Assembly: GCA_017442785.1 (NCBI GenBank)
Contig: JAFRZB010000015.1
Location: forward strand, 33,873-97,872
DNA length: 64,000 nt
Source: Bacillota bacterium
GTDB taxonomy: Bacteria; Bacillota; Clostridia; Peptostreptococcales; Anaerovoracaceae
Direction: 5' to 3'
Under the pieces are notes generated by a model that did no database searches, had not been told where the DNA came from, and was given only the letters and a program-made list of their open reading frames with translations. Both the position numbers and the translations under genes were made by a program. Positions within the stretch are counted from its first letter, which is position 1. Every line of letters begins with the position of its first letter. Positions 8,987 through 37,500 of the stretch are shown here, piece by piece.

Positions 8987-9874
8987 TTAGATTGTCTTCT
9001 TGTATTTGAGCGGCGTTATGCCCTCCGTCTGCCCGAACACCTTGGTGAAGTAGCTCTGGTCGGAGAACCCGCAGCGCCTTGCTGCCTCCGCTATCGGAAC
9101 GCCCTCCGCCAGGAGCCCTTTGCTCCTTTCTATCCTTACCTGGGTAAGGTAGGCGTTCACTGTGGTGCCGCACTCTCTCTTGTAGAGACGGCACAGATAG
9201 GATGTCGTCATCCCTGCATGTCTGGCAATGTCCAGAAGAGATATGTCTCTTCCGAAATTGGATCCGATGTAATCGTTCACCAGCTTTACAGTCTGGGCGG
9301 GGTCTATCCTGTTAGCCCTCTCCCAGGCTTCCGTATCCTCCAGCTCGGCCAGATAGGCCTCACCGCCCCTGTCTACTCCGCTGAGGAAGGCGGCGGAATA
9401 GACAAGGAGCTGAGAAAATGCGTTAACTTTTTTAGGATCTGCTACGGGCACCGGATCTATCCGGGACATTACGTTCCTGATATCCGAGGCAGACAGGTCT
9501 TTGAGCTTCGGAAGATCGAATTCCTCGAAATCCTGTTTGTCCTCCATGAGGAACGGTCCTGCCGTAAGCCGCAGGAGCTTTCCCTGGCCGCCGGATACCG
9601 CCGCTGTTATGTACGAAAGACCCAGAGGGCATTCATACAAGTATTTGCCGTCTCCGCTTCTGGAGACCTTTGCGGTAAAGGCGTGGAGCTTTTTGCAGTC
9701 CTCCCTGGAGATCCCTGTTCCGGCGCAGACATCGCACGCGCTGCAGCTGTAGCCGCTGGACGCTACGCTCTCGCCGTTCTGATGGCAGAGCTCGCAGCCT
9801 ATCTCGCTCGCTTCACGGAAAGCCTGGACGCAGCTCTCCGCGGATTCCAGATTGACTGCCAGAATGTCCGCCAA
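8987..9874 (-). CDS. AraC family transcription regulator with PocR sensory domain
   Basis: The 295-residue protein has an N-terminal PocR-type ligand domain (about residues 5-165) with clustered Cys residues (CELCHQNG, CSACDVC, YECPLGL) and a C-terminal double HTH AraC domain (about 190-295; ISLLDIARHAGMTTSYLCRLYKRE and IAEAARRCGFSDQSYFTKVF). PocR domains sense small ligands and often regulate cobalamin-dependent metabolism, such as propanediol use or corrinoid methyltransferases. That fits the divergent corrinoid-activator gene next door. The start is TTG at 9874 with AAGGAGG 5 bases upstream. The upstream region carries an inverted repeat over the promoter, suggesting self-control. The ligand is not known. 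Confidence 0.88.
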   Translation of the reverse strand: MADILAVNLESAESCVQAFREASEIGCELCHQNGESVASSGYSCSACDVCAGTGISREDCKKLHAFTAKVSRSGDGKYLYECPLGLSYITAAVSGGQGKLLRLTAGPFLMEDKQDFEEFDLPKLKDLSASDIRNVMSRIDPVPVADPKKVNAFSQLLVYSAAFLSGVDRGGEAYLAELEDTEAWERANRIDPAQTVKLVNDYIGSNFGRDISLLDIARHAGMTTSYLCRLYKRECGTTVNAYLTQVRIERSKGLLAEGVPIAEAARRCGFSDQSYFTKVFGQTEGITPLKYKKTI

Positions 9875-9925
9875 ATGAACCTCCTTGAAAAAACACTAAT
9901 GTTTTGATATCATCTATCTGTCGAT

Positions 9926-9954
9926 AATATATCACAAAATATGACGATTGTGAA
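9926..9954 (-). promoter_or_regulatory. Promoter and inverted repeat upstream of the AraC/PocR gene
   Basis: On the minus strand TTCACA, a 17-base spacer and TATATT form a sigma-A promoter. The inverted repeat TCACAA-N10-TTGTGA (arms 9932-9937 and 9948-9953 on the plus strand) lies inside it and is a candidate operator in the 193-bp divergent region shared with the corrinoid-activator gene. Confidence 0.5.
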
Positions 9955-10054
9955 CTACTTTGTTCAAAAAAATAATAATTTTTTCACGGAATTATTACAA
10001 AGATAGCGGTTTTTTATTGTCAAACTGCAAAATGAAAGCAGTAAGCATATAGTA

Positions 10055-10060
10055 TATAAT
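10055..10060 (+). promoter_or_regulatory. Consensus -10 box 7 bases before the ATG (possible leaderless transcript)
   Basis: TATAAT ends 7 bases before the ATG at 10068. There is no Shine-Dalgarno, and an in-frame TAG at 10050-10052 excludes an upstream start. No -35 consensus is present, as expected for an activator-dependent promoter. Transcription would begin at or next to the A of the ATG. Confidence 0.45.
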
Positions 10061-10067
10061 AATTGAC

Positions 10068-11486
10068 ATGGACGACAAGAAAATTAGAATCATCCACCAG
10101 GACGGAACAACAGACATAGCATTCAGCGGATCCCCCAGGTTAAGAGACCTGCTTGAGGCCAACGGACTTATGCCTGCCACGCCCTGCGGAGGCAACGGCA
10201 CCTGCGGAAAATGCAGCGCCTACCTCAACGGAAAGAAGGTGCTCACCTGCCAGGCCATGGCCGAAGAAGGCGAGCTCTACCTTCCCGAAAAGAAGATCCT
10301 GAGCAAGATCAAGACAGACGGCGAGATGCCGCAGTTCGACATTACGCCTCAGGAAGGCTACGGTCTTGCCGTGGACATCGGCACCACCACCGTAGTAGCA
10401 AGGCTCATCAATCTTAAGACCGGAGAACTCCTGCACGCGGTATCCAGGGAGAACCCTCAGCGCCTGCTCTCTGCGGACGTCATAGGAAGGATACAGGCCT
10501 GCATAGAAAAGGATAAGCTCCCGGTCCTCAAGGGGCTCATCAGAGAGACGATAACGGATCTTAGGGAGCACGCCTTAAAGATAAACAAGCTTAAAGAGGA
10601 AGACATAGTAAAGACGGTCATCACCGGAAACACCACCATGCTCTACCTCTACACCGGCAGGATGCCCACTACCCTCGCCTACACGCCGTTCATAGCGGAC
10701 TGCCTGTTCGGCTTTGAAGAAGATGGCGCGTACCTTCCACCCTGCTTCGGAGCATTCGTGGGAGCGGACATTTACACAGCCCTCACAGCCAGCGGCCTCA
10801 TAGCAAAAGACGAGACCGCGATACTGGTAGACCTCGGCACCAACGGAGAGATCTCCCTGTATCACGAAGGAAAGCTCGTGTGCTGCGCAACTGCCTGCGG
10901 TCCCGCATTCGAGGGCACCGGCATCAGCTGCGGCGGCCCTGCTGCGGACGGAGCCATAGACCACATCTGGCTGGAGGACGGAGAAGTTAAGTTCTCCACC
11001 ATAGGAGGTTCCGAGCCGTCGCACATATGCGGCAGCGGCATCATGGATGCGATAGCGGTCCTTCTGGACCTGGAGATCATAGACGAGACCGGCCAGATGG
11101 ACGATCCCTACGAGTTCGCACCCGGCGTGGTGCTGATGCCCAAGGACGTAAGGCAGGTGCAGCTCGCCAAGGCTGCCATCTGCGGAGGCATGAGGACGCT
11201 CCTTAAGCGCAGCGGCCTTAAGGAAGAAGACGTAAAGGTCCTCTACATAGCCGGAGGTTTCGGATCGTACATCGATCTGGACAGCGCTGCAAAGGTCGGG
11301 ATATTCCCCGCCGCACTCCGCGAAAGCGCAAAGGTCATAGGAAACGCCGCACTTGCCGGCGCGATAATGATCCTGCTCGGAGCAGACAAAAAGTTCGAGC
11401 CTTCCTCCGTGGAGACCGAATGCATAAACCTCGCACAGCAACCCGATTTTTCGGATCTGTATATGGAATCGATGTTCTTTGAGTAA
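10068..11486 (+). CDS. Corrinoid-protein reductive activator (ferredoxin domain plus ASKHA ATPase)
   Basis: The 472-residue protein starts with a 2Fe-2S ferredoxin domain (CGGNGTCGKC, Cys40/46/49, and Cys61) and continues into an ASKHA-fold ATPase (VDIGTTTVVARLI; ITGNTTML; VDLGTNGEI; ICGSGIMDAIA; YIAGGFGSY). This is the architecture of RACo/RamA-like proteins, which use ATP and an Fe-S electron to reduce inactive Co(II) corrinoid proteins to Co(I). It is shorter than the 600-residue RACo forms and has a compact linker. The start lacks a ribosome site (see the -10 box entry). The next gene, a URO-D-type methyltransferase, follows after 22 bases, so both serve methyl transfer. No corrinoid protein gene is in the window. 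Confidence 0.88.
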   Translation: MDDKKIRIIHQDGTTDIAFSGSPRLRDLLEANGLMPATPCGGNGTCGKCSAYLNGKKVLTCQAMAEEGELYLPEKKILSKIKTDGEMPQFDITPQEGYGLAVDIGTTTVVARLINLKTGELLHAVSRENPQRLLSADVIGRIQACIEKDKLPVLKGLIRETITDLREHALKINKLKEEDIVKTVITGNTTMLYLYTGRMPTTLAYTPFIADCLFGFEEDGAYLPPCFGAFVGADIYTALTASGLIAKDETAILVDLGTNGEISLYHEGKLVCCATACGPAFEGTGISCGGPAADGAIDHIWLEDGEVKFSTIGGSEPSHICGSGIMDAIAVLLDLEIIDETGQMDDPYEFAPGVVLMPKDVRQVQLAKAAICGGMRTLLKRSGLKEEDVKVLYIAGGFGSYIDLDSAAKVGIFPAALRESAKVIGNAALAGAIMILLGADKKFEPSSVETECINLAQQPDFSDLYMESMFFE

Positions 11487-11508
11487 ATTATAAAAAGAGG
11501 AGAAAACA

Positions 11509-12498
11509 ATGACACCAAGAGAAAATCTGCACGCATTCTTTGAAGGCGGAAACTGGGAGTGGAAGCCCGTAGGAACTGACAAAAAGTCCTTCCAGCCGAA
11601 GGAGATCTGTGAATACGTGGCACGTGCCTTCGTAAAGGAACAGGAGCCGTTCGACAACACCAAGGGCGGCGGCATGGGATGGTTCGGCATCGAGTGGGAA
11701 TATGAACCCGGCGCAGGTGGATCCATAAGCCTCAGGCCTATACTCGACGACGTTTCCGAGTGGAAGGACAAGATGGTATTCCCGAATCTCGACGAGATAG
11801 ACTGGGAAGACATAGCAAAGAGGAACGCAGATTACCTCAACACCGATCTCGGCATAGAATTCACGGTATTCACCGGATACTTCGAGAGGCTCATCTCCCT
11901 GCTCTCCTTCGAGGAAGCAGCCATGGAGCTGATCATGGAAGACTACGAGGAAGACATCCAGGAGCTCTTCACCGCTCTTACAGATTTCTACATCGACTTC
12001 GCTCAGAGGTTCCGCAAGTGGTTCGGCGCCGACTGGTGCATAATCCATGACGACTGGGGCACCCAGAGGTCCGCATTCTTCTCGCCGGCAGTGCACAAGA
12101 AGATGATAGTCCCCCACCTCACCAGGTTCGTTGAGGAATGCCACAAGGTAGGGCTCCTCGTTGAGATGCACTCCTGCGGATTCATCGAAGAGCTCATCCC
12201 GAACCTCATCAGCACCGGTATCGACAGCTGGGCGGGCCAGGGCATCGTAGACAAGAGGAAGCTCATCAACCTCTACGGAGACCAGTTCAAGTTCGAGGTC
12301 ATCACCAACCCGGCCAAGCCGTTCACCGAAGACCAGATCGAAGAAGCAGAGCAGTTCGCTCACGACATATTCGATGAGTTCAAGGACAAGAACATCATGT
12401 TCTGGACCAGCCCCAAGAGGTGCGGCAACATGAAGGTCTACCAGGCTATCTGCAAGGTCCTCAAGGAAGAAGGCATCAAGTACAGAAAGGGTGCTTAA
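11509..12498 (+). CDS. Uroporphyrinogen decarboxylase family methyltransferase (MtaA/CmuA-like)
   Basis: The 329-residue TIM-barrel protein of the URO-D superfamily contains EMHSCGF, in which His221 and Cys223 plus a later Cys305 (SPKRCGN) resemble the His-Cys-Cys zinc site of MtaA/MtbA-type methylcobamide methyltransferases. Haem-pathway UroD enzymes lack this motif, so tetrapyrrole decarboxylation is unlikely. Partnered with the corrinoid activator upstream, it probably moves methyl groups to or from a corrinoid protein, perhaps with a thiol or tetrahydrofolate acceptor. GAGGAG lies 8 bases before the ATG, and a strong hairpin terminator follows. The methyl donor is not identifiable. Confidence 0.85.
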   Translation: MTPRENLHAFFEGGNWEWKPVGTDKKSFQPKEICEYVARAFVKEQEPFDNTKGGGMGWFGIEWEYEPGAGGSISLRPILDDVSEWKDKMVFPNLDEIDWEDIAKRNADYLNTDLGIEFTVFTGYFERLISLLSFEEAAMELIMEDYEEDIQELFTALTDFYIDFAQRFRKWFGADWCIIHDDWGTQRSAFFSPAVHKKMIVPHLTRFVEECHKVGLLVEMHSCGFIEELIPNLISTGIDSWAGQGIVDKRKLINLYGDQFKFEVITNPAKPFTEDQIEEAEQFAHDIFDEFKDKNIMFWTSPKRCGNMKVYQAICKVLKEEGIKYRKGA

Positions 12499-12533: not shown

Positions 12534-12566
12534 GACCCCGCGCATGTCATATGCGCGGGGTCTTGT
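12534..12566. terminator. Bidirectional hairpin terminator
   Basis: GACCCCGCGCAT (12534-12545) and ATGCGCGGGGTC (12551-12562) form a perfect 12-bp stem with loop GTCAT. It lies between the convergent methyltransferase gene (end 12498) and cupin gene (end 12581). The U-run is short (TCTTGTG), so termination strength is uncertain. Confidence 0.75.
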
Positions 12567-12580
12567 GTATTAATATCACT

Positions 12581-13081
12581 TTACTTTGTAACTTCAGCCT
12601 CGTAAGAACTCTGCATCACACAGGAGAAGTGGAATACCGGCCTGTCGATCTTCTGTATCACCAGGGGACCGTGCTCAAGACCTGCAGGGAGGAATATCAT
12701 GCAGCTTTTAGTGAACACGTGCTTTTCTCCTCCGATGTAGAAGATGATCTCACCATTGAGCGCTTCGGGATGCCCGGGGTCTGAACCGTAGAACGCCACT
12801 ATCTCATCGACATCATGCTTGTGCGGCTCAAGGAACTTAGCTCCGGAATCCGCAGCCTCGCTGATGATATACATGTTCGGCCTGAAATACCATGATGCAT
12901 TGAGCTGGAAAGAACCCTGGACAACGTTGTCATCTATCCACAGTATACGCTTTGCGTACCTTTCATAAGATGCTACAGCTTTGGGATCGGCCTGAGCCGG
13001 AGGAAGCTGCAGAGTATTGCAGACATACTTTCCGTATTCTCCTTCGCTGTCATAGAATGTCTTGTCGTTTATAACATCCAT
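12581..13081 (-). CDS. Cupin-domain protein, last gene of the glycyl-radical operon
   Basis: This 166-residue protein has a cupin core with PHKHDVDE (His87, His89, Glu93) and PAGLEHGP (His137), the classic metal-binding set of small cupins. The function is unknown; it could be an isomerase, epimerase, lyase or metal-dependent decarboxylase acting on the pathway's substrate. The ATG at 13081 was chosen over upstream starts because AAGGAGG lies 6 bases before it and because upstream codons overlap the preceding gene in another frame. It follows the 3-hydroxyacid dehydrogenase gene by 11 bases and ends at the shared terminator. Confidence 0.8.
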   Translation of the reverse strand: MDVINDKTFYDSEGEYGKYVCNTLQLPPAQADPKAVASYERYAKRILWIDDNVVQGSFQLNASWYFRPNMYIISEAADSGAKFLEPHKHDVDEIVAFYGSDPGHPEALNGEIIFYIGGEKHVFTKSCMIFLPAGLEHGPLVIQKIDRPVFHFSCVMQSSYEAEVTK

Positions 13082-13092
13082 GGTCGTCCTCC

Positions 13093-14049
13093 TTACAGTT
13101 CCTTCTCGGGGAAATTCCAGGAAAGCATGCTCCAGTACGGTGCTGTCACTCTTTCCGAGAACGCTTTCATATCTACGTTGTTCCAGTCGTAGAATCCCTG
13201 CTTTTTCTCGCTTCTGGCGCCCATTCTGCCCTCTTCCATGAGTTTTTTCATGACGTCGGGTATCTCTGTCCTGTTGGACAGTATCGGCCATATGTTGCGG
13301 CATGTCGCCGCATTGAGCTCGAGTCCGCCGTTGTCGAAGTGCTCGAAGATCCCAATGGAGGTGTACCTCGGGCAGAAGCTGTACTCAAGGCAGGTGTCCA
13401 CGTCCTCGGGGTCGCAGATGCCTTCTTCGACAAGAGCCAGCGCCTCCCGCCAGAGCGCGAACTGCAGACGGTTTCCTATGAAACCGGGCGTAGGTTTTTT
13501 CAGCACGACAGGCTTTCTGTCCATCTCCTCGAGGAAGCTGCAGGCGTATTCTATTGCCTCGGCAGCAGTGCTGTCCGCTCCGCAGATCTCGAAATACGGG
13601 ACCATGTGAGGCGGGTTGAAGGGATGCGCGACAAGTATCCTGTCCGCGTACTTTCCTGCGCCTTCGGCAAGAACGTTAGGCACTATGGAAGAACTTACAG
13701 AGCAAATAGCCTTTATTTCAGGGCAGTTCTCCAGAAGCTTTTCAAACACCTCGTATTTGGCGTCCGTAGTCTCCAGGACCGACTCAAAGACCATCTCCGC
13801 GTCCTTCATTTCGCTGTAATCGAGCGCATACTTTATATAGCTCTTGCAGATCTCCGCCTTCTTCCCGTCGATAAGGCCTCTTTCGACCATCTGTCCGTAA
13901 AAACCGTCGACCACGCCCATGCATCTGTCGATGGATCTCTGGCTCCTTGCGAAGACTACTGTCTTCCATCCGTGTCCGGCTGTAAGCACCGCCATGCTGC
14001 TTGCTATCATTCCGGTACCGACTATTCCTACTGTTCTTACGTTTTCCAT
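13093..14049 (-). CDS. 3-hydroxyacyl-CoA dehydrogenase-fold NAD-dependent dehydrogenase
   Basis: The 318-residue protein has a Rossmann start GIVGTGMIASSMA, the VFESVLET helix, AHPFNPPHMVPYFEI around the catalytic His, and a C-terminal dimerisation domain (TPGFIGNRLQFALWREALALVEEG). The AHPFNPPH version of the active site resembles carnitine dehydrogenase and L-gulonate 3-dehydrogenase (lambda-crystallin) more than beta-oxidation enzymes, so a free 3-hydroxy acid is a plausible substrate. It lies in the operon with the glycyl radical enzyme, 62 bases after the CapA-like gene and just before the cupin. The oxidised 3-keto acid would then be an intermediate of the pathway. Substrate identity is inferred only. 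Confidence 0.82.
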   Translation of the reverse strand: MENVRTVGIVGTGMIASSMAVLTAGHGWKTVVFARSQRSIDRCMGVVDGFYGQMVERGLIDGKKAEICKSYIKYALDYSEMKDAEMVFESVLETTDAKYEVFEKLLENCPEIKAICSVSSSIVPNVLAEGAGKYADRILVAHPFNPPHMVPYFEICGADSTAAEAIEYACSFLEEMDRKPVVLKKPTPGFIGNRLQFALWREALALVEEGICDPEDVDTCLEYSFCPRYTSIGIFEHFDNGGLELNAATCRNIWPILSNRTEIPDVMKKLMEEGRMGARSEKKQGFYDWNNVDMKAFSERVTAPYWSMLSWNFPEKEL

Positions 14050-14072
14050 TGTATTCCTTCCCTGAAACAGTC

Positions 14073-14100
14073 ATGGGGCAATGTCTGCGCACTGCCCCAT
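14073..14100 (-). other. Intercistronic hairpin between the CapA-like and dehydrogenase genes
   Basis: ATGGGGCA (14073-14080) and TGCCCCAT (14093-14100) form an 8-bp perfect stem with a 12-base loop. No U-tract follows, so it is more likely a processing, stability or attenuation element than a full terminator. Confidence 0.5.
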
Positions 14101-14111
14101 ATCACTTTGAA

Positions 14112-15245
14112 CTATTCGGTCACTATGCGGACCTCATCGCCCTCGATCGCGAAGCACGGCTTGATATTCTGGTTAACGGTGATCTCTTCAACGTAGTCGA
14201 TGACTTCCTTGAACCTGGGGTTCTCGTGGGTCAGGACTTCCGGAACGAAGGTATCGTCGTCGATCCATACAGGAACGTAGGTGAACTTGTCGATCTTGCC
14301 GTCCTTAAGATACATCTTTGCAAGTATGGTCTTGCAGGAGTCGAAAGGCATGGTGCGCTTCGGGTTCTTCTTGAAATCCTCGTTCAGCTTGCGGATGTCG
14401 GCGTGGCGGGAGTCATTGATGAGTCCGTTCTTGCCTTCGAAGTAAGCTGCCGGGCCTTCGGTGGCGAAGTTGGCCAGCGAGTAGAATATCGGCTTGCCTT
14501 TGTACACTTCTATACCCTTGAGTATGTGGGTGTGATGTCCGATGACTACGTCCGCGCCCTCGTCCAACGCGTAGTGTCCTACTATCCTCTGGTAGTCGGC
14601 TATGACTGCCGGAGTGAAGTGGATGCCCCAGTGCTGGGATACGACAAGGATGTCTACCAGCGGACGGAGCTTGTGGATGTCCTCGATCATGTTGTTGAGG
14701 TCATCTATGTGCGGCCAGCTGAAGATCCTTACCGGAGTACCGGGCTGGTCGTGCTCAATGCACGGAGCCGCGGTAATGCCGCGCATGGGGTTGGCGCCGG
14801 GTCTGTCTTTGAGTGCCCAGTAATCCTGGGGCAGTATGGAGCAGTATCCCAGGAAACCGATCTTGGTTCCGTCGTCCAGGGTCCTGATTATGGGCTGTCT
14901 GGCCTCTTCCAGGTCGTTGCCTGCACCGACGATATCGACGCCGGATTCCTTCATTATGCGCATGGTGTCGTAGAAGCCTTCGAAGCCCCAGTCCATGACG
15001 TGATTTCCGGCATTGGACATTACGTCGAATCCGGCTTTCTTAAGGCAGGGACCTGCGGACGGATATATACGGAGCGGCAGTCTGCACTGGCAGGCCGGGG
15101 CTCCCTTGTCTGTGACTACCGCTTCAAGCTGTCCGAACAGAAGATCGCAGTCATGAATATAATCGTTGGTCTTCTCGAATATGCTGTCCATATCAGGACG
15201 CTTGGGGGCGGTGTCGCCGACGAAATACACTTTTTTATTAGCCAT
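14112..15245 (-). CDS. CapA family (calcineurin-like fold) protein, cytoplasmic
   Basis: The 377-residue protein has PGA-cap/CapA motifs: VGDTA near the start, FGQLEA, SNAGNHVMDWG, VVSQHWG and VIGHHTH, which are metal-binding blocks of the metallophosphoesterase fold. No signal peptide or membrane anchor is visible, unlike the poly-gamma-glutamate export protein CapA, so a cytoplasmic hydrolase acting on a small substrate is more likely. It sits inside the glycyl-radical operon between the carrier and the dehydrogenase. AGAGGAT lies 6 bases before the start. Its reaction is unknown; amide or phosphoester hydrolysis are possibilities. Confidence 0.8.
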   Translation of the reverse strand: MANKKVYFVGDTAPKRPDMDSIFEKTNDYIHDCDLLFGQLEAVVTDKGAPACQCRLPLRIYPSAGPCLKKAGFDVMSNAGNHVMDWGFEGFYDTMRIMKESGVDIVGAGNDLEEARQPIIRTLDDGTKIGFLGYCSILPQDYWALKDRPGANPMRGITAAPCIEHDQPGTPVRIFSWPHIDDLNNMIEDIHKLRPLVDILVVSQHWGIHFTPAVIADYQRIVGHYALDEGADVVIGHHTHILKGIEVYKGKPIFYSLANFATEGPAAYFEGKNGLINDSRHADIRKLNEDFKKNPKRTMPFDSCKTILAKMYLKDGKIDKFTYVPVWIDDDTFVPEVLTHENPRFKEVIDYVEEITVNQNIKPCFAIEGDEVRIVTE

Positions 15246-15278
15246 TTCAGATCCTCTTGTATTATATCATAACACTAA

Positions 15279-16589
15279 TTACATCGTAACGCCGAGTATT
15301 GTAAGGATGATGCCGCCGACCACTACGCCGATAAGGCATACTACCAGCTGGCCGGTAACAAGTCTCTTCGCCTGGGATTCGTCGCGGTTCATACCCATGA
15401 ACACAGCGCCGCCGGTGCTGAACGGGGACATTCCGGTAAAGTGAGCGCCCAGAACAGCAGCAAGGAAGAGTACCATAGCGTTCAGCGCTCCGCCGGAAGA
15501 CTGTACCAGCTGCGGTACGATAGGAGCCACCATCGGGAATACGACGGTGATGCCTCCGGAGAAGGAAGACAGGAACGCACCGAGCAGACACATGAAGAAC
15601 GGCAGCAGCCAGTTGGGAATGGTAGCCGTGAGCCAGTCGGAGATGATCTTGATGGCGCCGGCCTTAACGCCTACGCTCATAAGCATGGATATACCGGCCA
15701 GAAGGAGAAGCGTGTTCCACGGGCACTTGTTGATGACCTCTCTGGGGTTGGCCAGCTTGAGGAAGTGAGCGATTATGAATCCTATAAGGCACAGCACCTG
15801 GATGTCGCAGAAGCCGGAAAGAGACTTCATGAATGCTCCGCCTATCTTCCAGGTAACGAGCATGCCGGGTACTACAGCGAAGAATACCACAACGAGTATA
15901 AGGGTAAGTGTTCCCTTCTGTTCTCTTGTAAAGGGCGCGGGCTGCTCCATTCCGACGATCTCTTTTACTCTATAGCCCTTCCAGATGAAGAAGCAGAGGA
16001 CCATAACAAGAATGGATATAACAACACTGAGTCCGAAGATGCTCCAGGTATAACCCATAGCATCCGCCTCATAACCGTTAGAAGCAATGGTGGATTCGAT
16101 GATGGCTCCGGAAGCGCCCCAGCGGATGAATGAACCTGCGTTGCAGGAATAGCCAAGGGATGCGCAGATGAGCGGATCCACACCGGACGGAACTGCGATG
16201 GTGAAGCCCATTACAGCAAGGATAGCGCCAGCGGCCGGGGGTACGCAGCCGAGGATTCCGAGAGCGAAACCGATGACCATGAGCATGAATACGAGCATGT
16301 ACGGTCTTTTTCTCGTCGCGTACAACATCTTTTTAGCGATCGCTTCCATCGTGCCGTTTACTACACCTACGCCGAAGAACAGCGACAGTGACAGGACCTG
16401 GAAGAAAACGCTTGTCGGAAACATCGCGATGACTTCTTTCACGCGAAGCTTCATGAAAAGCACGCCGATGATGAATGCGAACACCATGGCGGAGATGCCC
16501 ATCTGCAGGTTGAACTTGTAGCTGAGGAAGATAGCCAGAGCTACGCCCACCAGACAGAGGATCACGATTGTGCCATTAACAGCTTCCAT
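15279..16589 (-). CDS. MatC-like dicarboxylate/anion carrier
   Basis: The 436-residue integral membrane protein has about 11-12 hydrophobic segments. Its N-terminal half (MFPTSVFFQVLSLSLFFGVGVVNGTMEAIAK) resembles the MatC/ion-transporter superfamily. It probably imports a carboxylate across the cytoplasmic membrane. An ATG at 16589 with AGGAGG 8 bases upstream is preferred to one 45 bases earlier. It follows the glycyl-radical activase gene by 41 bases, so it likely supplies the substrate of that enzyme. The substrate cannot be read from the sequence, but a small organic anion is most plausible. Confidence 0.82.
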   Translation of the reverse strand: MEAVNGTIVILCLVGVALAIFLSYKFNLQMGISAMVFAFIIGVLFMKLRVKEVIAMFPTSVFFQVLSLSLFFGVGVVNGTMEAIAKKMLYATRKRPYMLVFMLMVIGFALGILGCVPPAAGAILAVMGFTIAVPSGVDPLICASLGYSCNAGSFIRWGASGAIIESTIASNGYEADAMGYTWSIFGLSVVISILVMVLCFFIWKGYRVKEIVGMEQPAPFTREQKGTLTLILVVVFFAVVPGMLVTWKIGGAFMKSLSGFCDIQVLCLIGFIIAHFLKLANPREVINKCPWNTLLLLAGISMLMSVGVKAGAIKIISDWLTATIPNWLLPFFMCLLGAFLSSFSGGITVVFPMVAPIVPQLVQSSGGALNAMVLFLAAVLGAHFTGMSPFSTGGAVFMGMNRDESQAKRLVTGQLVVCLIGVVVGGIILTILGVTM

Positions 16590-16630
16590 TTTTAAAACCT
16601 CCTGGAATCGTAATGATGATTGCGCGGCCT

Positions 16631-17539
16631 TCAATGCATAGTGCAGTCAAGACCAGATTCAGTGAATATACGTTTATAACTCTCTTTCTGTTCTGCAGTG
16701 GGAGAGGAAACGTCTGTGAGCAGGTACGGCATGTCGAGCATCTTGTACTTGCCCAGGCCGAACCTGTGGTAAGGAAGAAGGTCCACGTGCAGCGACGGAT
16801 CCAGATCCTTTACGAACCGGGCTGTTGCCGCAAGGTCTTCTTCCGAGTCGTTGTACCCCGGAATGACCGGGATGCGTATGAATATCTTTACCGGATACTC
16901 ATGGATAAGCTTAAGATTCTGAAGTATCAGCTCATTGCCGAAGCCTGTGTATTCCCTGTGCTTTTCACTGTCCATGTGCTTAAGGTCGTAGAGCACAAGG
17001 TCCGTAAACGGCAGGACCTTTTTTATGTTCTCCGAGGGGAACTGTCCGCAGGTGTCAAGGGTAGTGTGTATCCCCTGCTCTTTACACCTTCTGAAGAGCT
17101 CCGCAACGAAGTCGGCCTGGAGCATGCATTCTCCTCCGGAACAGGTGACCCCTCCGCCGGAGCTTTCGTAAAATCCTTTATCCTTCATGACTTCTTCAAA
17201 GACCTTATCTATGGTCTTCTCTTCACCGTAGAAGAACATGGCATGAGACGGGCAGACGTTTACGCAGGTGCCGCAGGAAACACATTTGCTGCGGTCTATG
17301 CTTACGGCGCCTTCCTTAACGCTGAGAGCTTCCTGAGGGCAGTTTCTGATGCAGTATCCGCATTTGACGCATATCGGCGCCCTGTGCGCCAGCTGCCTTG
17401 TTCCCTTCTGAGACTCGGGGTTGGCACACCACAGGCACTTCAGGGGGCAGCCCTGGAGGAATACCGTAGTCCTCACTCCGGGGCCGTCCTCGGTTGAAAA
17501 ATGCTGTATATTGAATACTTGTCCGGTTAGCTGAGACAT
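16631..17539 (-). CDS. Glycyl-radical enzyme activase (radical SAM)
   Basis: The 302-residue protein has the radical SAM motif CPLKCLWC (Cys31, 35, 38) and an inserted two-cluster ferredoxin domain: CVKCGYCIRNCP (Cys57-67) and CVSCGTCVNVCP (Cys86-96). This layout is typical of activases for glycyl radical eliminases and decarboxylases, whereas PFL-activating enzyme lacks the insert. YESSGGGVTCSGGE is the SAM-binding loop. It abstracts a hydrogen from the Gly796 of the enzyme encoded 9 bases upstream. The pair is translated together and functions only without oxygen. Confidence 0.93.
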   Translation of the reverse strand: MSQLTGQVFNIQHFSTEDGPGVRTTVFLQGCPLKCLWCANPESQKGTRQLAHRAPICVKCGYCIRNCPQEALSVKEGAVSIDRSKCVSCGTCVNVCPSHAMFFYGEEKTIDKVFEEVMKDKGFYESSGGGVTCSGGECMLQADFVAELFRRCKEQGIHTTLDTCGQFPSENIKKVLPFTDLVLYDLKHMDSEKHREYTGFGNELILQNLKLIHEYPVKIFIRIPVIPGYNDSEEDLAATARFVKDLDPSLHVDLLPYHRFGLGKYKMLDMPYLLTDVSSPTAEQKESYKRIFTESGLDCTMH

Positions 17540-17548
17540 CCTTTTCTC

Positions 17549-20011
17549 CTAGATAGCTTCGCTCGTTCTGGATATGATCTCGTTCCTGAGGCTCTTGGGC
17601 AGATCTACGAAGAATGCGCTGTATCCAGCGACGCGGACCATAAGGTTCGGGTGCTTTTCCGGGTGTTCGCTGGCTTCGACGAGCAGATCCTGGTCGATGA
17701 TGTTGATCTGGACGTGGAATCCGCCGTGTGTGAAGTACTCCTCGAGCATGGCGCCCAGGTTCTTTATGTTTTCAGGATTGTTGAACAGCCTCTTGTCGAA
17801 CTTCATGTTCATGAGAGCCGCGGTAGAGTTGTCGACGTGGACAGCCTTGGATGCGGAATTGAACACGCAGGTAGGACCGTGGGTGTCGCAGCCCTGGGAG
17901 GGCGAGCAGAAACCGTCAGCGATGGGTTCTCCGTCCTTGTGACCGCTGGGGAGCGGGCCTGTCCTCTTTCCGAAGGTAACGTGAGCCATGGCTCCGGACC
18001 TTCCGGCCCACAGCGGGGTTCCGAACGGGTTCTTTTCATTCCACATACGGTCCTGCAGCCATACTGAAAGATCCGTGAAGATCTGATCCGCGTAATCGTC
18101 GTCGTTTCCGTACTTAGGAGCAGCCTTGAGCATCGCTCTTTCATACTCGTAGCCCTCGAAGTTGTGATCCATTGCCTCTATGATGCGGTCAACGGTGAGC
18201 TTCCTGTCGTCGAATACGAGCTTCCTGATAGCAGTGAGAGAATCCGCTGCGTCCTGCAGTCCGCGGTCAGCCACGTGATACAGGAAGGAGGGATACCTTA
18301 CACCGCCAGCTCTGGCATCCATGCCCTTTTCGATGCAGTCACCCAGAAGAGCGGACAGATACGGGGTGTGGAAGCTGTTGATGTCTACGTATGCAGAGAC
18401 TCTTGCTGCCTTTGCCATCATAGTGATGAGGTAGTCGAACTGAGCCTTGAAAGCATTTACGAAATCCTCGATGCTGCTGAAGTTCCTGGGATCTCCGGTG
18501 TGCGGTCCGATCTGAACGCCGGTCTTGGGGTCCCTGCCGTCGTACATCACGTACTCCATGATCTTTGCGAGGTTGATGTAGTTGATGCCAAGAGATCCGC
18601 CGTGCGTGGAATATCCGCCGATAAGTGATCCCGCGCAGCCAAGAGCGCTCCAGTTGCGGGCGTCTTCTATGGTTATTCCCCTCTTAAGGAAGCCGGGGAT
18701 ACGAGTCTCGTCGCTCATGTAGGCGGGGTTGCCGTCTCCTCTGCGGACGTTTACTTCTATGGCTTTGTACCATACGCGCTTATCTATGTTCTTGTGATAG
18801 CGGACGTAGATAGGCGGCTGGGGCAGGTTGACCTGAGCCTGGCACTCAAGGATGAGATAGGACAGCTCGTTGGAAGCGTCCCTGCCGTCAGCGGTCTGAC
18901 CGCAGATAGTGGTCGCCTGCAGAGTCGTGCCGGGGATGTTGTTCTTTTCGTAGTTGTTCTTAACTACGCAGATCTCGTTGATCTTTACAAGCACCAGCGC
19001 GAACAGTTCCGCTGCGTCCTGACGGGAGAGGCTGCCCTTAATGACATCTTTCTCGTACATCGGGTACAGATACTGGTCTATGCGGCTGGGAGACTCGGCC
19101 TGGAAGGAGCATTCCAGGTTCTCGCAAAGGTGGGTGAACCAGAATGACTGGCAGGCTTCGTGGAAGTTCCTGGCCGGCTTTGCCGGAACGTGCTCGCATA
19201 CCTCGGCTATCTTAAGGAGCTCGGCCTTTCTGACAGGATCAGCCTCAGTCTCAGCCATCTGCTTTGCCAGCTCTGCGTGGCGCTTTGCAAATGTGATCGC
19301 GCCTTCCAGCGCGTAGATCACGCCAGTATAGAAATTGTATTTTTCGTTGTCGGACTTCGGATCTGCCGTGAAATCCAGACTGTCTCTTAAGGTCCTTGCT
19401 TCTTCGATGATGCTTTCAAGTCCTCTGTCTATTACCCAGCCGTAGTTTACGTTCTTGGCTCCGGGAGGCATTCCGGCCTTTCCGCCGTTGATGAGGCCCG
19501 ATCTGTCCCACTCTCTGATCCAGGGGAACATGGAATCGTTGTTCTTGAGGACCTGGTCGGAAGTGGATCTGCCCTTCCAGTACTCCGCACACTCTTTAAG
19601 GATCTTTCTTTCTTCCAGGCTGATGGCTCCGGACTTGGTCTCGTCATAGTCAGTGGTAACGCCTTCGAAGCTCTTGAGCGCGTCGATGGCGACCTGGGGA
19701 TTGTAATCCAGGCACGGAGATGCGCCTAAGAGATACTTGGACTGGGAGCCTACGATGAGCTCGCCTTCGTGGATGCTTACCGGATTCTTTTCCATGATAG
19801 CCTTGAAGAGCTTTCCTCTTCTGATGTCGAGCGGCTCACCGTCTGTTTCCTTCCAGGACTCGGTGACTATCTGTGCTCTTTCTACAGCGATATGCTCGAC
19901 CGCTTCCTGACGGTCCTTGAGACGCTTTGCCACTCTCGGCGTGATGGCGTTGACTGCATCACATGCAGCAGTGTCTATCGGATTCTCGTAGATGGTCCTT
20001 ACATTTTCCAT
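17549..20011 (-). CDS. Glycyl radical enzyme of unassigned subclass (GCAGS active site)
   Basis: The 820-residue protein has the PFL-like fold. The glycyl radical site is intact (VRVAGYSAFF, Gly796), and the catalytic Cys is Cys459 in ALGCAGSLIGGYS. In most characterised C-N, C-O, C-S and C-C eliminases of this family the Cys is followed by Val-Glu-Pro, and the Glu is a base. Here the matching residues are Ala-Gly-Ser, so the standard eliminase base is absent. It is unlike PFL, which has CCVSP. The start is ATG 20011, with AAGGAG 7 bases upstream, chosen over one 39 bases earlier. It heads a six-gene operon with activase, carrier, CapA-like protein, dehydrogenase and cupin, and faces a LysR gene. 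The substrate is unknown. Confidence 0.93.
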   Translation of the reverse strand: MENVRTIYENPIDTAACDAVNAITPRVAKRLKDRQEAVEHIAVERAQIVTESWKETDGEPLDIRRGKLFKAIMEKNPVSIHEGELIVGSQSKYLLGASPCLDYNPQVAIDALKSFEGVTTDYDETKSGAISLEERKILKECAEYWKGRSTSDQVLKNNDSMFPWIREWDRSGLINGGKAGMPPGAKNVNYGWVIDRGLESIIEEARTLRDSLDFTADPKSDNEKYNFYTGVIYALEGAITFAKRHAELAKQMAETEADPVRKAELLKIAEVCEHVPAKPARNFHEACQSFWFTHLCENLECSFQAESPSRIDQYLYPMYEKDVIKGSLSRQDAAELFALVLVKINEICVVKNNYEKNNIPGTTLQATTICGQTADGRDASNELSYLILECQAQVNLPQPPIYVRYHKNIDKRVWYKAIEVNVRRGDGNPAYMSDETRIPGFLKRGITIEDARNWSALGCAGSLIGGYSTHGGSLGINYINLAKIMEYVMYDGRDPKTGVQIGPHTGDPRNFSSIEDFVNAFKAQFDYLITMMAKAARVSAYVDINSFHTPYLSALLGDCIEKGMDARAGGVRYPSFLYHVADRGLQDAADSLTAIRKLVFDDRKLTVDRIIEAMDHNFEGYEYERAMLKAAPKYGNDDDYADQIFTDLSVWLQDRMWNEKNPFGTPLWAGRSGAMAHVTFGKRTGPLPSGHKDGEPIADGFCSPSQGCDTHGPTCVFNSASKAVHVDNSTAALMNMKFDKRLFNNPENIKNLGAMLEEYFTHGGFHVQINIIDQDLLVEASEHPEKHPNLMVRVAGYSAFFVDLPKSLRNEIISRTSEAI

Positions 20012-20059
20012 TTTTATGCTCCTTTCCTTGAGATACGGAATTATTACCAAACTGCAAAT

Positions 20060-20089
20060 ATATTATTACTCAAGAGGGATGGATATCAA
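20060..20089 (-). promoter_or_regulatory. Candidate promoter of the glycyl-radical operon
   Basis: On the minus strand TTGATA (complement at 20084-20089), an 18-base spacer and TAATAT (complement at 20060-20065) lie about 50 bases before the ATG at 20011. This is the best match in an AT-rich region, so support is modest. Confidence 0.35.
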
Positions 20090-20161
20090 AATCCAAGATG
20101 CTGTATATATTTCCAATATAAAAATCAATACGTCAAATGGGCCCAATTTTCGGCATAATGA

Positions 20162-20279
20162 TGATCATTTAGTAAATCTATAGCAGAGTTTTTCTCCTTG
20201 ATCATCCGGATGCAGTCAGCATTGATTTTCATAACGGAAATGTTATAATGATCATGAAGATCTATCCCCGCGATCATGA
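20162..20279. promoter_or_regulatory. Repeated TGATCA-type sites in the LysR/glycyl-radical divergent region
   Basis: GATCAT occurs at 20163, 20200, 20250 and 20272, three of the four inside the palindrome TGATCA. The last two are direct repeats of GATCATGA exactly 22 bp apart, two helical turns. They flank the LysR promoter and are candidate binding sites for the divergent LysR protein. Confidence 0.4.
20222..20249 (+). promoter_or_regulatory. Promoter of the LysR gene
   Basis: TTGATT (20222-20227), 16-base spacer, TATAAT (20244-20249). The transcript would have a leader of about 50 bases with AAGAAGAGG 6 bases before the ATG at 20307. Confidence 0.65.
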
Positions 20280-20306
20280 TGAGAATATCCAAAGAAGAGG
20301 TACGCA

Positions 20307-21239
20307 ATGACTACTGAAGAGATAGCCCTTATCTGTGAGCTTCCCAATTACACAAGCTTTCTTGATGCATCGTATTACCTGCCCTATTCACCGTCTGTCA
20401 TCACCAAATACGTCTGCAGCGTTGAAGAAGAATTGGGAATAAAACTGTTCATACGCAGCAATAAATCCAGGACTCTTCAATTGTCAGATGAAGGGAAGGT
20501 CCTGATCGAATCATTCAACCGTGTAAATGACGACTGGTCCTACCTGAAAAAGCAGGTCGAGGACATAAAGACTGCAGAGCACCACAGCATTCGTATAGGG
20601 TCTCAGCCAAGATTCGGCAATATACATGAGCAGAAGATAATCACGGAATTCCTGTTCTGCAGCCCTCTGGCACAGGTCAGCATGACAAAATCCCCGGCTG
20701 ACGAGCTTATCAGGAATCTGGTCGCGGGAAAGCTCGATGCGGCCTTCATAACCTTTAACAAGTCTCTTGATCTTGACGATTATTTTGCGGCGCACGGAGA
20801 TAAGATCCTTGCAATCCACATAGCAAGTGAAAACGAGATGTATACGGGGATCTCCGAGAAATACTTCAGAGGGCAAAATGAGGTGTGCCTTAATGATCTG
20901 AAAGATTTTACATTCGCGTTTCCTTTTCCCAACGAAAACGATATTCAGAGCGCTCGTGCCGCTCAGTCCTGGAAGTCGATAGCGGCAGAAAAAGGCATCG
21001 AGCTTAAATATATAAACCTTCAGGGATATGACAGCACGGTCTTTGAGATGGCCAGACAGAAAAAAATAGCCGTTACCACGACACGCGTGCCTTCGGCCAG
21101 TTATGAGGGTGTTAAATTCGTTAAGATATCAGACTGGACCGGAGGAACCAATCTTTACTTCCTGCACTGCCCGTCCAACAGGCACCCTGCCATAAGACAG
21201 CTCAAGCAGTGCGTGGAGGATTATCGGGATTCCCTGTAG
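20307..21239 (+). CDS. LysR family transcription regulator
   Basis: The 310-residue protein has an N-terminal winged HTH (about residues 5-65; YSPSVITKYVCSVEEELGIKLF) and a periplasmic-binding-like effector domain (about 90-300). It is divergent from the glycyl-radical operon with 295 bp between the starts, the normal arrangement for a LysR activator controlling its neighbour. The first helix (ALICELPNYTSFLDASYYLPYSPSVI) departs from the standard LysR opening. Base use is somewhat more AT-rich than that of neighbouring genes. The effector is probably the substrate or an intermediate of the operon. Its last 19 bases overlap the end of the opposite-strand Cys-rich gene. Confidence 0.88.
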   Translation: MTTEEIALICELPNYTSFLDASYYLPYSPSVITKYVCSVEEELGIKLFIRSNKSRTLQLSDEGKVLIESFNRVNDDWSYLKKQVEDIKTAEHHSIRIGSQPRFGNIHEQKIITEFLFCSPLAQVSMTKSPADELIRNLVAGKLDAAFITFNKSLDLDDYFAAHGDKILAIHIASENEMYTGISEKYFRGQNEVCLNDLKDFTFAFPFPNENDIQSARAAQSWKSIAAEKGIELKYINLQGYDSTVFEMARQKKIAVTTTRVPSASYEGVKFVKISDWTGGTNLYFLHCPSNRHPAIRQLKQCVEDYRDSL

Positions 21240-34578: not shown

Positions 34579-37500
34579 TCAGTACTCGAAGCTGCCCTCG
34601 TAGACTGCCTGGGCGCTTCCGGTAAGTATCACTCTCTCGTCCGTATAGTTGACGGTAAGATCTCCTCCGGGAAGGCTTACCTTTATGTCCCTGCCCTTTT
34701 CCACGCGGCCGGTCTCCGCCGCGGCTATCACGGCGGCACAGGCTCCGGTGCCGCAGGCAAGCGTCTCTCCGCTTCCGCGCTCCCAGACCTTTACCCTGAG
34801 GCTGTCAGGTCCGAGCTGCCTTACGAACTCCGCGTTTACGCGGTCCGGGAAGAGCTCAGAATATTCGAATTTGGGGCCTGTCGATGCCACGTCCAGGGCC
34901 TCAAGATCCTCAACAAAAACTACGCAGTGCGGATTTCCCACGGATACGCAGCTTATGCCGTATTCCTTTCCGCCTATCGACACCTGCTGGTCCAATACCG
35001 GCTGAGGCTGTACATTTCGCCACATTGACGGAATCTTGTTTATGTCTACAGGCACTTTGGCGGGGTCAAGCTCCGCTTTTCCCATGTCCACCGCAACGGA
35101 GCTCACCTTGCCGTCCCTTATGAACAGGCTCAGCTTCTTTGTTCCGCCTGCGGTCTCGACCGTCATGCTGCGGCTGGTTACGTAGCCCTTGTCGTACATG
35201 TACTTTCCTATGCAGCGCAGGTTGTTTCCGGCCATCTTTCCTTCGCTTCCGTCGCGGTTGAAGCTGCGCATCTTAACATCCGCGGTCTCCGAACGCTCCA
35301 TAAGCACTATGCCGTCCGCGCCTATGCCGTAGTGCGGCCTGCATAGTATCACGCAGAGCGCCTCCGGACAGGTTATGCTGCCGTCGAAGTTCTCTATGAA
35401 GATATAGTCGTTGCCGCAGTCCTGCATCTTGGTAAAGCTTATGTGCTGCGGCTGCGTGCGCATGTCGTTGATGTCCACCAGCTCCGTGTTGCCCAGGTTG
35501 AACCTGCTGGCCATCATATCCGCCAGGGCGTTGGCGGTATCCAGGGATGTAAGGCATGGTATACCGAGCATCATTGCCCTTCTGTGCAGGGCAATGAAAT
35601 CTCCCATCGTGGCGTCCTTTACTGCACCGGTGTAGATTATGTACTTTATCTCGCCCTGTTCCATAAGGTCCGTGATGGTGCTGCTCCTTGCGGCGTTGTC
35701 AACGGATGTTACGGGAAGGCCTGCAGAGGCTATGGCGGCCGCGGTGCCTGTGGTGGCAAAGAGCTTAAGGCCAAGCTCCTCGAGCCTTCTTGCGAGCGGT
35801 ATAATCTCCTGATAATCCTCGGTCTCAACGCTCAGCAGCACTCCCGCGGAGTTTCTGTCGTAAGCGGGCGGAACGGTGAATCCCGCGGATGTAAGCCCCT
35901 TGAACAGAGCCTCCGCAAGCGTCCTTCCTATGCCCAGGACCTCACCCGTGGACTTCATTTCGGGGCCGAGTATGGAGTTGGCATCGTTGAGCTTTTCGAA
36001 GGAGAAGACCGGCACCTTTACCGCGTAGTAAGGCGGTGTCCTGTAAAGACCCGTGCCGTAGCCCAGGTCCGCCAGCCTGGCGCCCAGCATCACCTGCGCG
36101 GCAAGATCCACCATCGGGACGTTCGTTACCTTGCTTATGTAGGGGACCGTTCTGGACGCCCTGGGATTGACCTCTATTACGTACAGCTCGTTGTCGTATA
36201 TAAGGTACTGGATGTTTACCAGGCCCTTTGTTCCGAGCGCCAGCGCCAGCTTTACGGAGACCTCGCATATTCTTTCCAGGAAAGCGTCGCTTAAGTTATA
36301 CGGCGGGTAGACCGCGATCGAGTCTCCGCTGTGGACGCCCGCGCGCTCTATGTGCTCCATTATTCCGGGGATCAGCACGTCTTTGCCGTCGGAGATGACG
36401 TCCACCTCCAGCTCCGTCCCGGGCATGTACTTGTCCACCAGCACGGGGTTTTCTATGCCGCCGGCCAGTATGCCCTTCATGTAGCGCTCGGTGGTCTCGC
36501 GGTTTCTGGAGATGGTCATGTTCTGGCCGCCTATTACGTAGGAGGGACGCAGGAGAACCGGGTAGCCCAGCTCTTCCGCCGCCTCAATGGCTTCCTCCAG
36601 GGTGCGCACGCCCTTTCCCTTGGGACGGCTTATTCCGAAGGTCTCCAGCAGCGCGTCGAAACGGGCCCTGTCCTCCGCAAGGTCTATGCCGTCCGCGGAG
36701 GTGCCCAGGATGGGCACGCCCTTCCTGTCCAGGAACTGCGTAAGCTTTATCGCTGTCTGGCCGCCGAAGGCCACGACTACGCCTACAGGCTTTTCCACCT
36801 GTATGATGTTCCATACATCCTCTTTGCAGAGGGGCTCAAAGTACAGCCTGTCCGCGGTGTCATAGTCCGTGGAGACGGTCTCCGGGTTGTTGTTTATGAT
36901 AACTACGTCGTAGCCCATCTTGCGGAGCATCCAGACGCAGTGTACGGAGCTGTAGTCGAACTCTATGCCCTGCCCTATCCTTATTGGTCCGGAGCCTAGC
37001 ACTATCACCACGGGCTTTCCGCTCCTGGGGAACTCCCGGCTCTCGCATTCGCCTCCGAAGCAGGAATAGAAATAAGGCGTCTCGGCGTCGAACTCCGCGC
37101 CGCAGGTGTCCACCATCTTGTAGCTCATCAGAGCCTCGGGAAGGACCTCCGCTCCGCTTATGCGCTTTACCGCCTCGTCCGTGTAGCCGAAGCTCTTTGC
37201 CTTCTGCCAAAGCTCCTCGGTAAGGCCTCCGGAAAGCTCCTTCTCAAGCTCTGCCATGCCGGCGAGCTTTGCAAGGAACCACTTGTCTATCTTAGTGAGG
37301 GAATGGATCTCGTCTATTGAAACTCCGGCCTTTATGGCCTCGAACACCGTAAAGAGCCTCCTGTCGTCCTGCTCCAGGAGCCTCTCCTTAAGAGGCTTTC
37401 CGTTTACAGGGGCGGCGTTAAGAGTATCCAGGGAAACTTCCGCGCCGCGCACAGCCTTCATCAGAGCCATCTCAAAGGACGGCGCAATGGCCATCACTTC

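Follow-up and report, generated by a model that had tools for sequence, protein, structure and literature searches.

We analysed a 64,000-nucleotide stretch (the window) of contig JAFRZB010000015.1 from a rumen Bacillota bacterium of the family Anaerovoracaceae, and found an operon centred on a glycyl radical enzyme (GRE) that lacks the cysteine-loop glutamate of GRE eliminases and belongs to a clade marked by its own arginine and aspartate. We estimate a probability of roughly 40% that this operon serves the anaerobic fermentation of an organic polyanion taken up from outside (a di- or tricarboxylate being most likely) by radical chemistry that does without the CxE motif, the product leaving as a hydroxyacid. 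We rate the GRE as an uncharacterised subfamily with a marked active-site change rather than as a new kind of enzyme. The source assembly (1.73 Mb in 50 contigs) is an estimated ~80% complete.

Anatomy of the operon

An original prediction, made from the DNA letters alone, had placed a six-gene set and a divergent LysR gene at 12581-21239, headed by a GRE with intact Cys459 and Gly796 and a GCAGS loop. All seven genes are present and the 820-residue protein carries both residues and the loop, the LysR assignment being weak:

17549..20011, minus strand: glycyl radical enzyme, 820 aa, with GCAGS Cys loop, C459, G796 (RVAGYS) and the clade-specific R583 and D587
16631..17539, minus strand: GRE-activating radical SAM enzyme with a 4Fe-4S ferredoxin-like insert (TIGR02494, 361 bits, cut-off 174; radical-SAM and 4Fe-4S domains above cut-off)
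15279..16589, minus strand: MatC/CitMHS-type dicarboxylate carrier (MatC_N, PF07158, 88.5 bits, cut-off 23; CitMHS 73 bits, also above cut-off)
14112..15245, minus strand: cytoplasmic CapA-like calcineurin-fold protein (PGA_cap, PF09587, 197.8 bits, cut-off 27), without a signal peptide by eye, closest solved structure the peptide epimerase MslH
13093..14049, minus strand: 3HCDH-family NAD-dependent dehydrogenase (HCDH; 3HCDH_N and 3HCDH domains above cut-off)
12581..13081, minus strand: metal cupin, 166 aa (Cupin_2 16.6 bits, below the cut-off of 27.2)
20307..21239, plus strand: LysR-type regulator, divergent from the operon (two domains just below threshold, 24.5 against 28 and 24.7 against 26.6 bits)

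Consecutive genes from the GRE to the cupin are separated by 9, 41, 33, 62 and 11 bp. The GRE starts at an internal ATG at 20011, and its relatives begin at the equivalent Met. The predicted cupin shows both metal motifs by eye (HKHDVDE, PAGLEH), but its Pfam match is sub-threshold and its start lies at 13081, an ATG preceded by AGGAGG, rather than at 13303 as in the raw open reading frame (ORF); the relative in stretch L125 begins alike. A LysR relative is also divergent from the GRE in stretches L036 and L041.

Pairwise dN/dS against the orthologs in the goat-omasum stretch L036 was 0.066 for the GRE, 0.082 for the activase, 0.092 for MatC and 0.069 for CapA; HCDH gave 0.054 against L043, and the cupin was left out. 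Values of 0.05-0.09 for these five genes against relatives in the genus mark them as maintained genes under purifying selection, not chance ORFs. The six genes form one transcription-unit-like array. Chance ORFs or a decayed locus were ruled out by the intact frames and by dN/dS of 0.05-0.11 over the six genes computed.

Active site and clade of the glycyl radical enzyme

With PF02901 at 574 bits and PF01228 at 93.3 bits (cut-off 22.2), the enzyme falls within the GRE superfamily. It shares fold family, Gly loop, catalytic Cys and a cluster-type activase with the GRE eliminases (glycerol/propanediol dehydratase, HypD, CutC, HpsG/HpfG, IslA), which also give it its best HMM and PDB scores. None of the NCBIfam GRE models reached its cut-off, however, and scores were about half of the curated equivalog cut-offs or less: HpsG 517 bits (cut-off 1000), HypD (NF043068) 514.8 (1100), choline TMA-lyase 450 (1050), indoleacetate decarboxylase 432 (1100), HPA decarboxylase 350 (1150) and PFL 106 (994). 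The best PDB match was glycerol dehydratase at only 481 bits. No close characterised GRE was found among the curated models or the solved structures, in line with the original prediction.

The Cys loop reads C459-A-G461, and the 23 residues after C459 hold neither Glu nor Asp, which bears out the predicted absence of the CxE glutamate, including one supplied from the same loop. Three essential HypD residues are replaced (D278 by Q304, D339 by Thr, E436 by Gly), whereas HypD Y450 is retained as Tyr; HypD H160 lies outside that alignment. All five glycerol dehydratase residues compared, which we take to have active-site roles, are replaced as well (E435 by G461, H281 by Q304, S282 by A305, H164 by A185 and D447 by G475). 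None of these eight polar residues is kept, and the window GRE has the clade-specific R583 and D587. The loop departs from the CxE motif that two papers present as the mark of GRE eliminases (PMC7077986, PMC8473560).

The fumarate-binding Arg of X-succinate synthases stands at Cys+15 according to PMC12358834 (BSS Arg508, MASS Arg492). The window GRE has Leu at this position, and none of the 15 clade rows described below has Arg, which speaks against fumarate addition. TutD is the second-best match for a 203-residue segment around R583; the window differs from BSS and MASS systems also in that no accessory-subunit or hydrocarbon gene was recognised in the operon. The residue preceding C459 is Gly, hence there is no PFL-type Cys-Cys pair. 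With the eight polar residues replaced and the fumarate Arg absent, the enzyme fits neither the standard eliminases nor the standard fumarate-adding enzymes.

An alignment of 85 GREs was the basis of a quick maximum-likelihood tree, midpoint rooted. Repeats and near-duplicates (L004, L005, L007, L010, L011) were omitted from a first tree and L025 (long branch, radical Gly absent) additionally from a second; ORFs below 400-450 residues were excluded. The window GRE falls inside a 15-row clade (SH-aLRT 100) without Glu or Asp two residues after Cys in any row, so the unusual loop is no lone oddity. Its Cys loops are GCAGS (four rows) and GCVWP (three), all from the window's genus, GCLGY (six, found in the genus, elsewhere in its family and in a genome from another class of the same phylum), GCVYP (one Oscillospiraceae assembly) and GCSQP (one Chloroflexi assembly). 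A narrower GCxG clade uniting GCAGS and GCLGY was unsupported (SH-aLRT 23); the wider CxE-less clade alone holds.

Over all 85 rows, the position two after Cys gives 29 CxE, 22 CxD and 34 with neither, 19 of the latter outside the clade. Since it varies so widely among uncharacterised GREs, the Cys-loop motif alone is weak evidence; the original prediction had argued from the missing Glu to different chemistry, and although the Glu is indeed absent, its absence is no proof. Two further features set the clade apart, on the same 15 rows by which it was defined: R583 is present in 15/15 clade rows and 0/70 others (one gapped at the column), no Lys or Arg occupies columns 580-586 in any non-clade row, and D587 occurs in 15/15 against 9/70. 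In the TutD alignment, the R583 segment directly follows residues matching BSS Trp613 and Ile617, the latter a residue of the BSS substrate pocket according to PMC12583861. R583 may bind a substrate carboxylate.

The GRE occurs at 89-93% identity in four other genomes among the 296 sampled from the family, all of the same genus; the next-closest family GREs show 39-41%, and genome matches of 450-510 bits show 34-41%. A one-genome-per-species contig scan with two peptide patterns, which is not exhaustive, added relatives of ~90% in sheep and goat omasum assemblies, one of 83% from a water-buffalo rumen assembly that is cut off behind residue 169, and others at 32-33%. Profile A3, run at E ≤ 1e-170 on class (391 genomes) and phylum (299 genomes) samples, matched 15 and 13 genomes; the only clade members among these were in the window's own genome and in G948, at a threshold that would overlook more distant ones. 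G948 was the only one of four genomes of its class matched at 1e-200.

Two other GRE loci stood out. In one genus member with 15 GRE matches genome-wide, a single 38.5-kb contig (L123, L124) carries eight of them among FAD-binding/CCG-domain oxidase-like genes, alcohol dehydrogenase (ADH), aldehyde dehydrogenase (ALDH) and a MatC-like carrier. The GRE homolog at L025 1501-3840, from the same family, reads RVATYS, with Thr replacing the radical Gly; the noncanonical aminoacyl radical enzymes of PMC11528403 offer a comparison.

Partner proteins and neighbourhoods in relatives

Hydrolysis, one step of the originally predicted pathway, found no support as the role of the CapA-like protein. Its sole PGA_cap relative among the Foldseek-ranked solved chains is MslH (24% identity), an epimerase of the C-terminal residue of a (lasso) peptide. 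It shares the fold of MslH and keeps 7/8 active-site residues, comprising two His/Asp dyads and metal ligands, with His261 replaced by Gly; phosphoesterases share most of them. It scores 83.9 bits against the MslH model NF038314 (cut-off 700), and unlike MslH it sits in catabolic operons with no peptide substrate evident. We did not adopt hydrolase as the sole reading, as the residues fit hydrolase or epimerase. Elsewhere in the same genome, a CapA-like gene lies together with MmgE and a Mem_trans-type carrier, without a GRE (L088 8401-11883), and another, 54% identical to the window's, adjoins a citrate-synthase gene (L111 5244-7723).

The predicted label 'carnitine/gulonate-type' fits the dehydrogenase at superfamily level only: it reaches 125.9 of 592 bits for L-carnitine 3-dehydrogenase, and no gulonate 3-dehydrogenase model was among its curated-model matches. 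Its relatives in L043, L125 and L127 are 73-86% identical, and the cupin has a 66% relative in L125.

We checked 20 stretches around clade GREs with the same queries. The gene order recurs in genus members, with variation. L036 carries LysR, GRE, activase, MatC and CapA, followed by MmgE/PrpD where HCDH and cupin stand in the window; L042 and L120 agree for the parts covered. MmgE/PrpD is a family of hydroxyacid hydro-lyases, epimerases and decarboxylases. L043 has GRE, activase, MatC, CapA and HCDH and ends ~300 bp beyond. In two genus members (L125, L127), HCDH (73-76%), a pair of MmgE genes and a MatC-like gene come after a second clade GRE (GCVWP), and the L125 operon additionally holds TctC and the cupin; L128 has GRE, two MmgE and MatC without HCDH. 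Since L125 and L127 hold both genes beside a clade GRE and L128 holds MmgE without HCDH, the two belong to one gene pool shuffled among clade-GRE operons, and we dropped the idea that they are simple alternatives.

GCLGY relatives keep different company. A GRE and its activase stand with a glutamate-mutase-like gene in L047 and in the partial L012. In L079 the pair is joined by GlmE, GlmS, MmgE and two subunits of the hydantoinase/caprolactamase type, and in L045 by a GlmES fusion, GlmL, MmgE, a lactonase and dehydrogenases for alcohol and aldehyde. The L079 mutase keeps three Arg that we take to form the glutamate mutase site, and what is presumably the amino-binding Glu aligns with Pro, so its substrate may be other than glutamate. 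L050 shows GRE, activase and, by eye, only an MFS-like carrier, and in L040 genes for a solute-binding protein and a member of an epimerase family come after the GRE.

MmgE was found in 8/20 stretches (L036, L042, L120, L125, L127, L128, L079, L045); many of the 12 without it are short, and L038 stops at the GRE end. Genus-wide, 13/20 MmgE/PrpD and 8/15 CapA matches lie within 6 kb of a GRE; the adjacency expectation used uniform placement, distances between match starts and rounded genome sizes. MmgE/PrpD proteins, which include 2-methylcitrate dehydratase, cis-aconitate decarboxylase and IDS-epimerase, are thus a recurrent partner of genus GREs and of two GCLGY sister loci, whereas the window operon has no MmgE of its own. 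Among solved structures, the sister MmgE is closest to IDS-epimerase (E 1e-31), with chains of IRG1 and cis-aconitate decarboxylase further down (~1e-20), and none of three MmgE proteins tested reached a curated PrpD model. The original prediction had not recognised the gene set as a described pathway, and our open-paper searches likewise found no description of the GRE-activase-MatC-CapA-HCDH-cupin set and no MmgE-glycyl radical link, the sole apparent match being spurious ('mmgenome').

Beyond the cupin lie a hairpin and a conserved set of neighbours:

12534..12562: hairpin with a stem of 12-13 pairs where the cupin and UroD-like genes converge, terminator-like on either strand
11509..12498, plus strand: UroD-like protein with a weak match to MtaA/CmuA-type methyltransferase models, conserved neighbour with a putative pathway role
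10068..11486, plus strand: RACo-type corrinoid-protein reductive activator, conserved neighbour with a putative pathway role
8987..9874, minus strand: PocR-sensor AraC-type regulator, conserved neighbour

Neither terminator-like sites (8 in the whole scan against 6.3 ± 2.6 in shuffles) nor promoters (8 against 5.8 ± 2.5) were in clear excess. L036 and L042 likewise carry the PocR/AraC, RACo and UroD-like genes (8987-12498 in the window) next to the operon. The genus shows an expansion of UroD-like relatives (57 matches in 10/11 genomes, E ≤ 1e-10), one standing beside MmgE, CapA and TctA in L116; a link of the conserved UroD/RACo neighbours to corrinoid methyl transfer is possible. Farther along the window, one 1353-aa frame (34579-38640, minus strand) runs from a carbamoyl-phosphate synthase large chain into a diaminopimelate epimerase domain, either a fusion or an assembly effect.

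Proposed pathway and competing explanations

From the observed anatomy, clade and gene associations, we infer each of the following reaction steps. MatC would import the anion, and the CapA-like enzyme, with its metal and two MslH-type His/Asp dyads, would reset the configuration at the carbon beside a carboxylate. The G796 radical would generate a thiyl radical on C459 while R583 holds the substrate carboxylate, and a bond would be eliminated or cleaved without a Cys-loop Glu. The resulting hydroxycarboxylate would be oxidised by HCDH and processed further by the cupin; in sister species, MmgE/PrpD would act in the HCDH/cupin slot or within the same operon.

Several observations weigh against this proposal. 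Each enzyme family in the operon permits several reactions, and the placement of R583 near the pocket comes from the sequence alignment to TutD alone. Largely the same residues as in the CapA-like protein also serve metallophosphoesterases, making a hydrolase role equally possible, and the top rank of MslH, the only PGA_cap relative among the solved chains, tells little about the reaction. Within the clade, CapA accompanies only GCAGS GREs (window, L036, L042, L043, L120); in the 20 stretches no CapA match appeared around GCVWP, GCLGY, GCVYP or GCSQP GREs, and outside the clade CapA adjoins CxD GREs (L113, L114, L117). The window activase, used as query, found no relative in L125, L127, L128, L038 or L040. 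Orthologs are included in the adjacency figures, in which 13 MmgE matches amount to about four locus types (one placed by coordinates only), and the two MmgE genes of the window's own genome lie on GRE-free contigs.

The main rival, unlikely in our judgement but the one to be taken most seriously, would make the GRE an ordinary 1,2-eliminase, a dehydratase acting on a hydroxycarboxylate, with the base moved to D587 or H470 and the chemistry of glycerol or hydroxyproline dehydratase applied to a new substrate. Loss of the other compared HypD and glycerol dehydratase polar residues, with HypD Y450 kept, argues against it, whereas D587 is invariant across the clade, the position two after Cys is variable in any case, and the top specific families (HpsG 517, HypD 515 bits; glycerol dehydratase in the PDB) are eliminases. 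HypD itself employs its Glu differently from other eliminases, according to PMC7077986. The GRE might instead make or break a C-C bond, as a decarboxylase or as a fumarate-adding or -removing enzyme running either way, its product passing to a carbon-skeleton mutase in species of the sister clade. The glutamate-mutase-like genes beside GCLGY relatives (L079, L045, L047 and partly L012), with MmgE also near in L079 and L045, where the contig extends far enough, speak for this, and alkane degradation follows the logic of pairing a GRE with a B12 mutase. We consider it improbable, given the missing fumarate Arg in 15/15 clade rows, decarboxylase scores far below threshold (432/1100 and 350/1150 bits), the Gly before C459 and a window operon without a mutase gene.

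It is also quite improbable that the enzyme cleaves a C-N bond in an N-substituted amino polycarboxylate resembling an opine or iminodisuccinate, with alpha-carbon epimerisation by CapA and the sister MmgE/PrpD. The nearest relatives, IDS-epimerase and MslH, suit such a role and C-N-cleaving GREs are known (CutC), but identities are low, each of the two families covers a wide range of functions, neither an amidase nor an amino-acid gene was seen in the operon, and HCDH would have no obvious need. Replacement of HCDH and cupin by MmgE in L036, L042 and L120 would fit a pathway of GRE, activase, carrier and CapA alone, the two 3' genes being unrelated passengers. That seems very improbable, as HCDH, and once the cupin, recurs beside a second clade GRE in L125 and L127 and HCDH has a low dN/dS.

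Beyond fermentation of a polyanion by this one operon, the clade as a whole, in Bacillota and Chloroflexota, may have replaced the Glu of the Cys loop with an Arg/Asp pair that binds carboxylate. Its partners would be MmgE/PrpD, HCDH or a carbon-skeleton mutase, joined in the window's genus by a cytoplasmic epimerase of the CapA family; radical polycarboxylate cleavage of this kind would be new to characterised GREs. We hold this wider proposal to be rather unlikely as a whole. If true, it would describe an entire unassigned family of anaerobic pathways that has multiplied within a single genus of the ruminant gut. Very difficult reactions of the anoxic gut fall to GREs, and the clade bears on which of their residues dictate the reaction. 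As the missing CxE Glu coincides with an Arg and an Asp peculiar to the clade, it can be tested directly which residue stands in for the base and which bond is broken. The repeated company of CapA-like proteins and MmgE/PrpD would assign a catabolic role to cytoplasmic CapA proteins and hints at unrecognised organic-acid use in the rumen.

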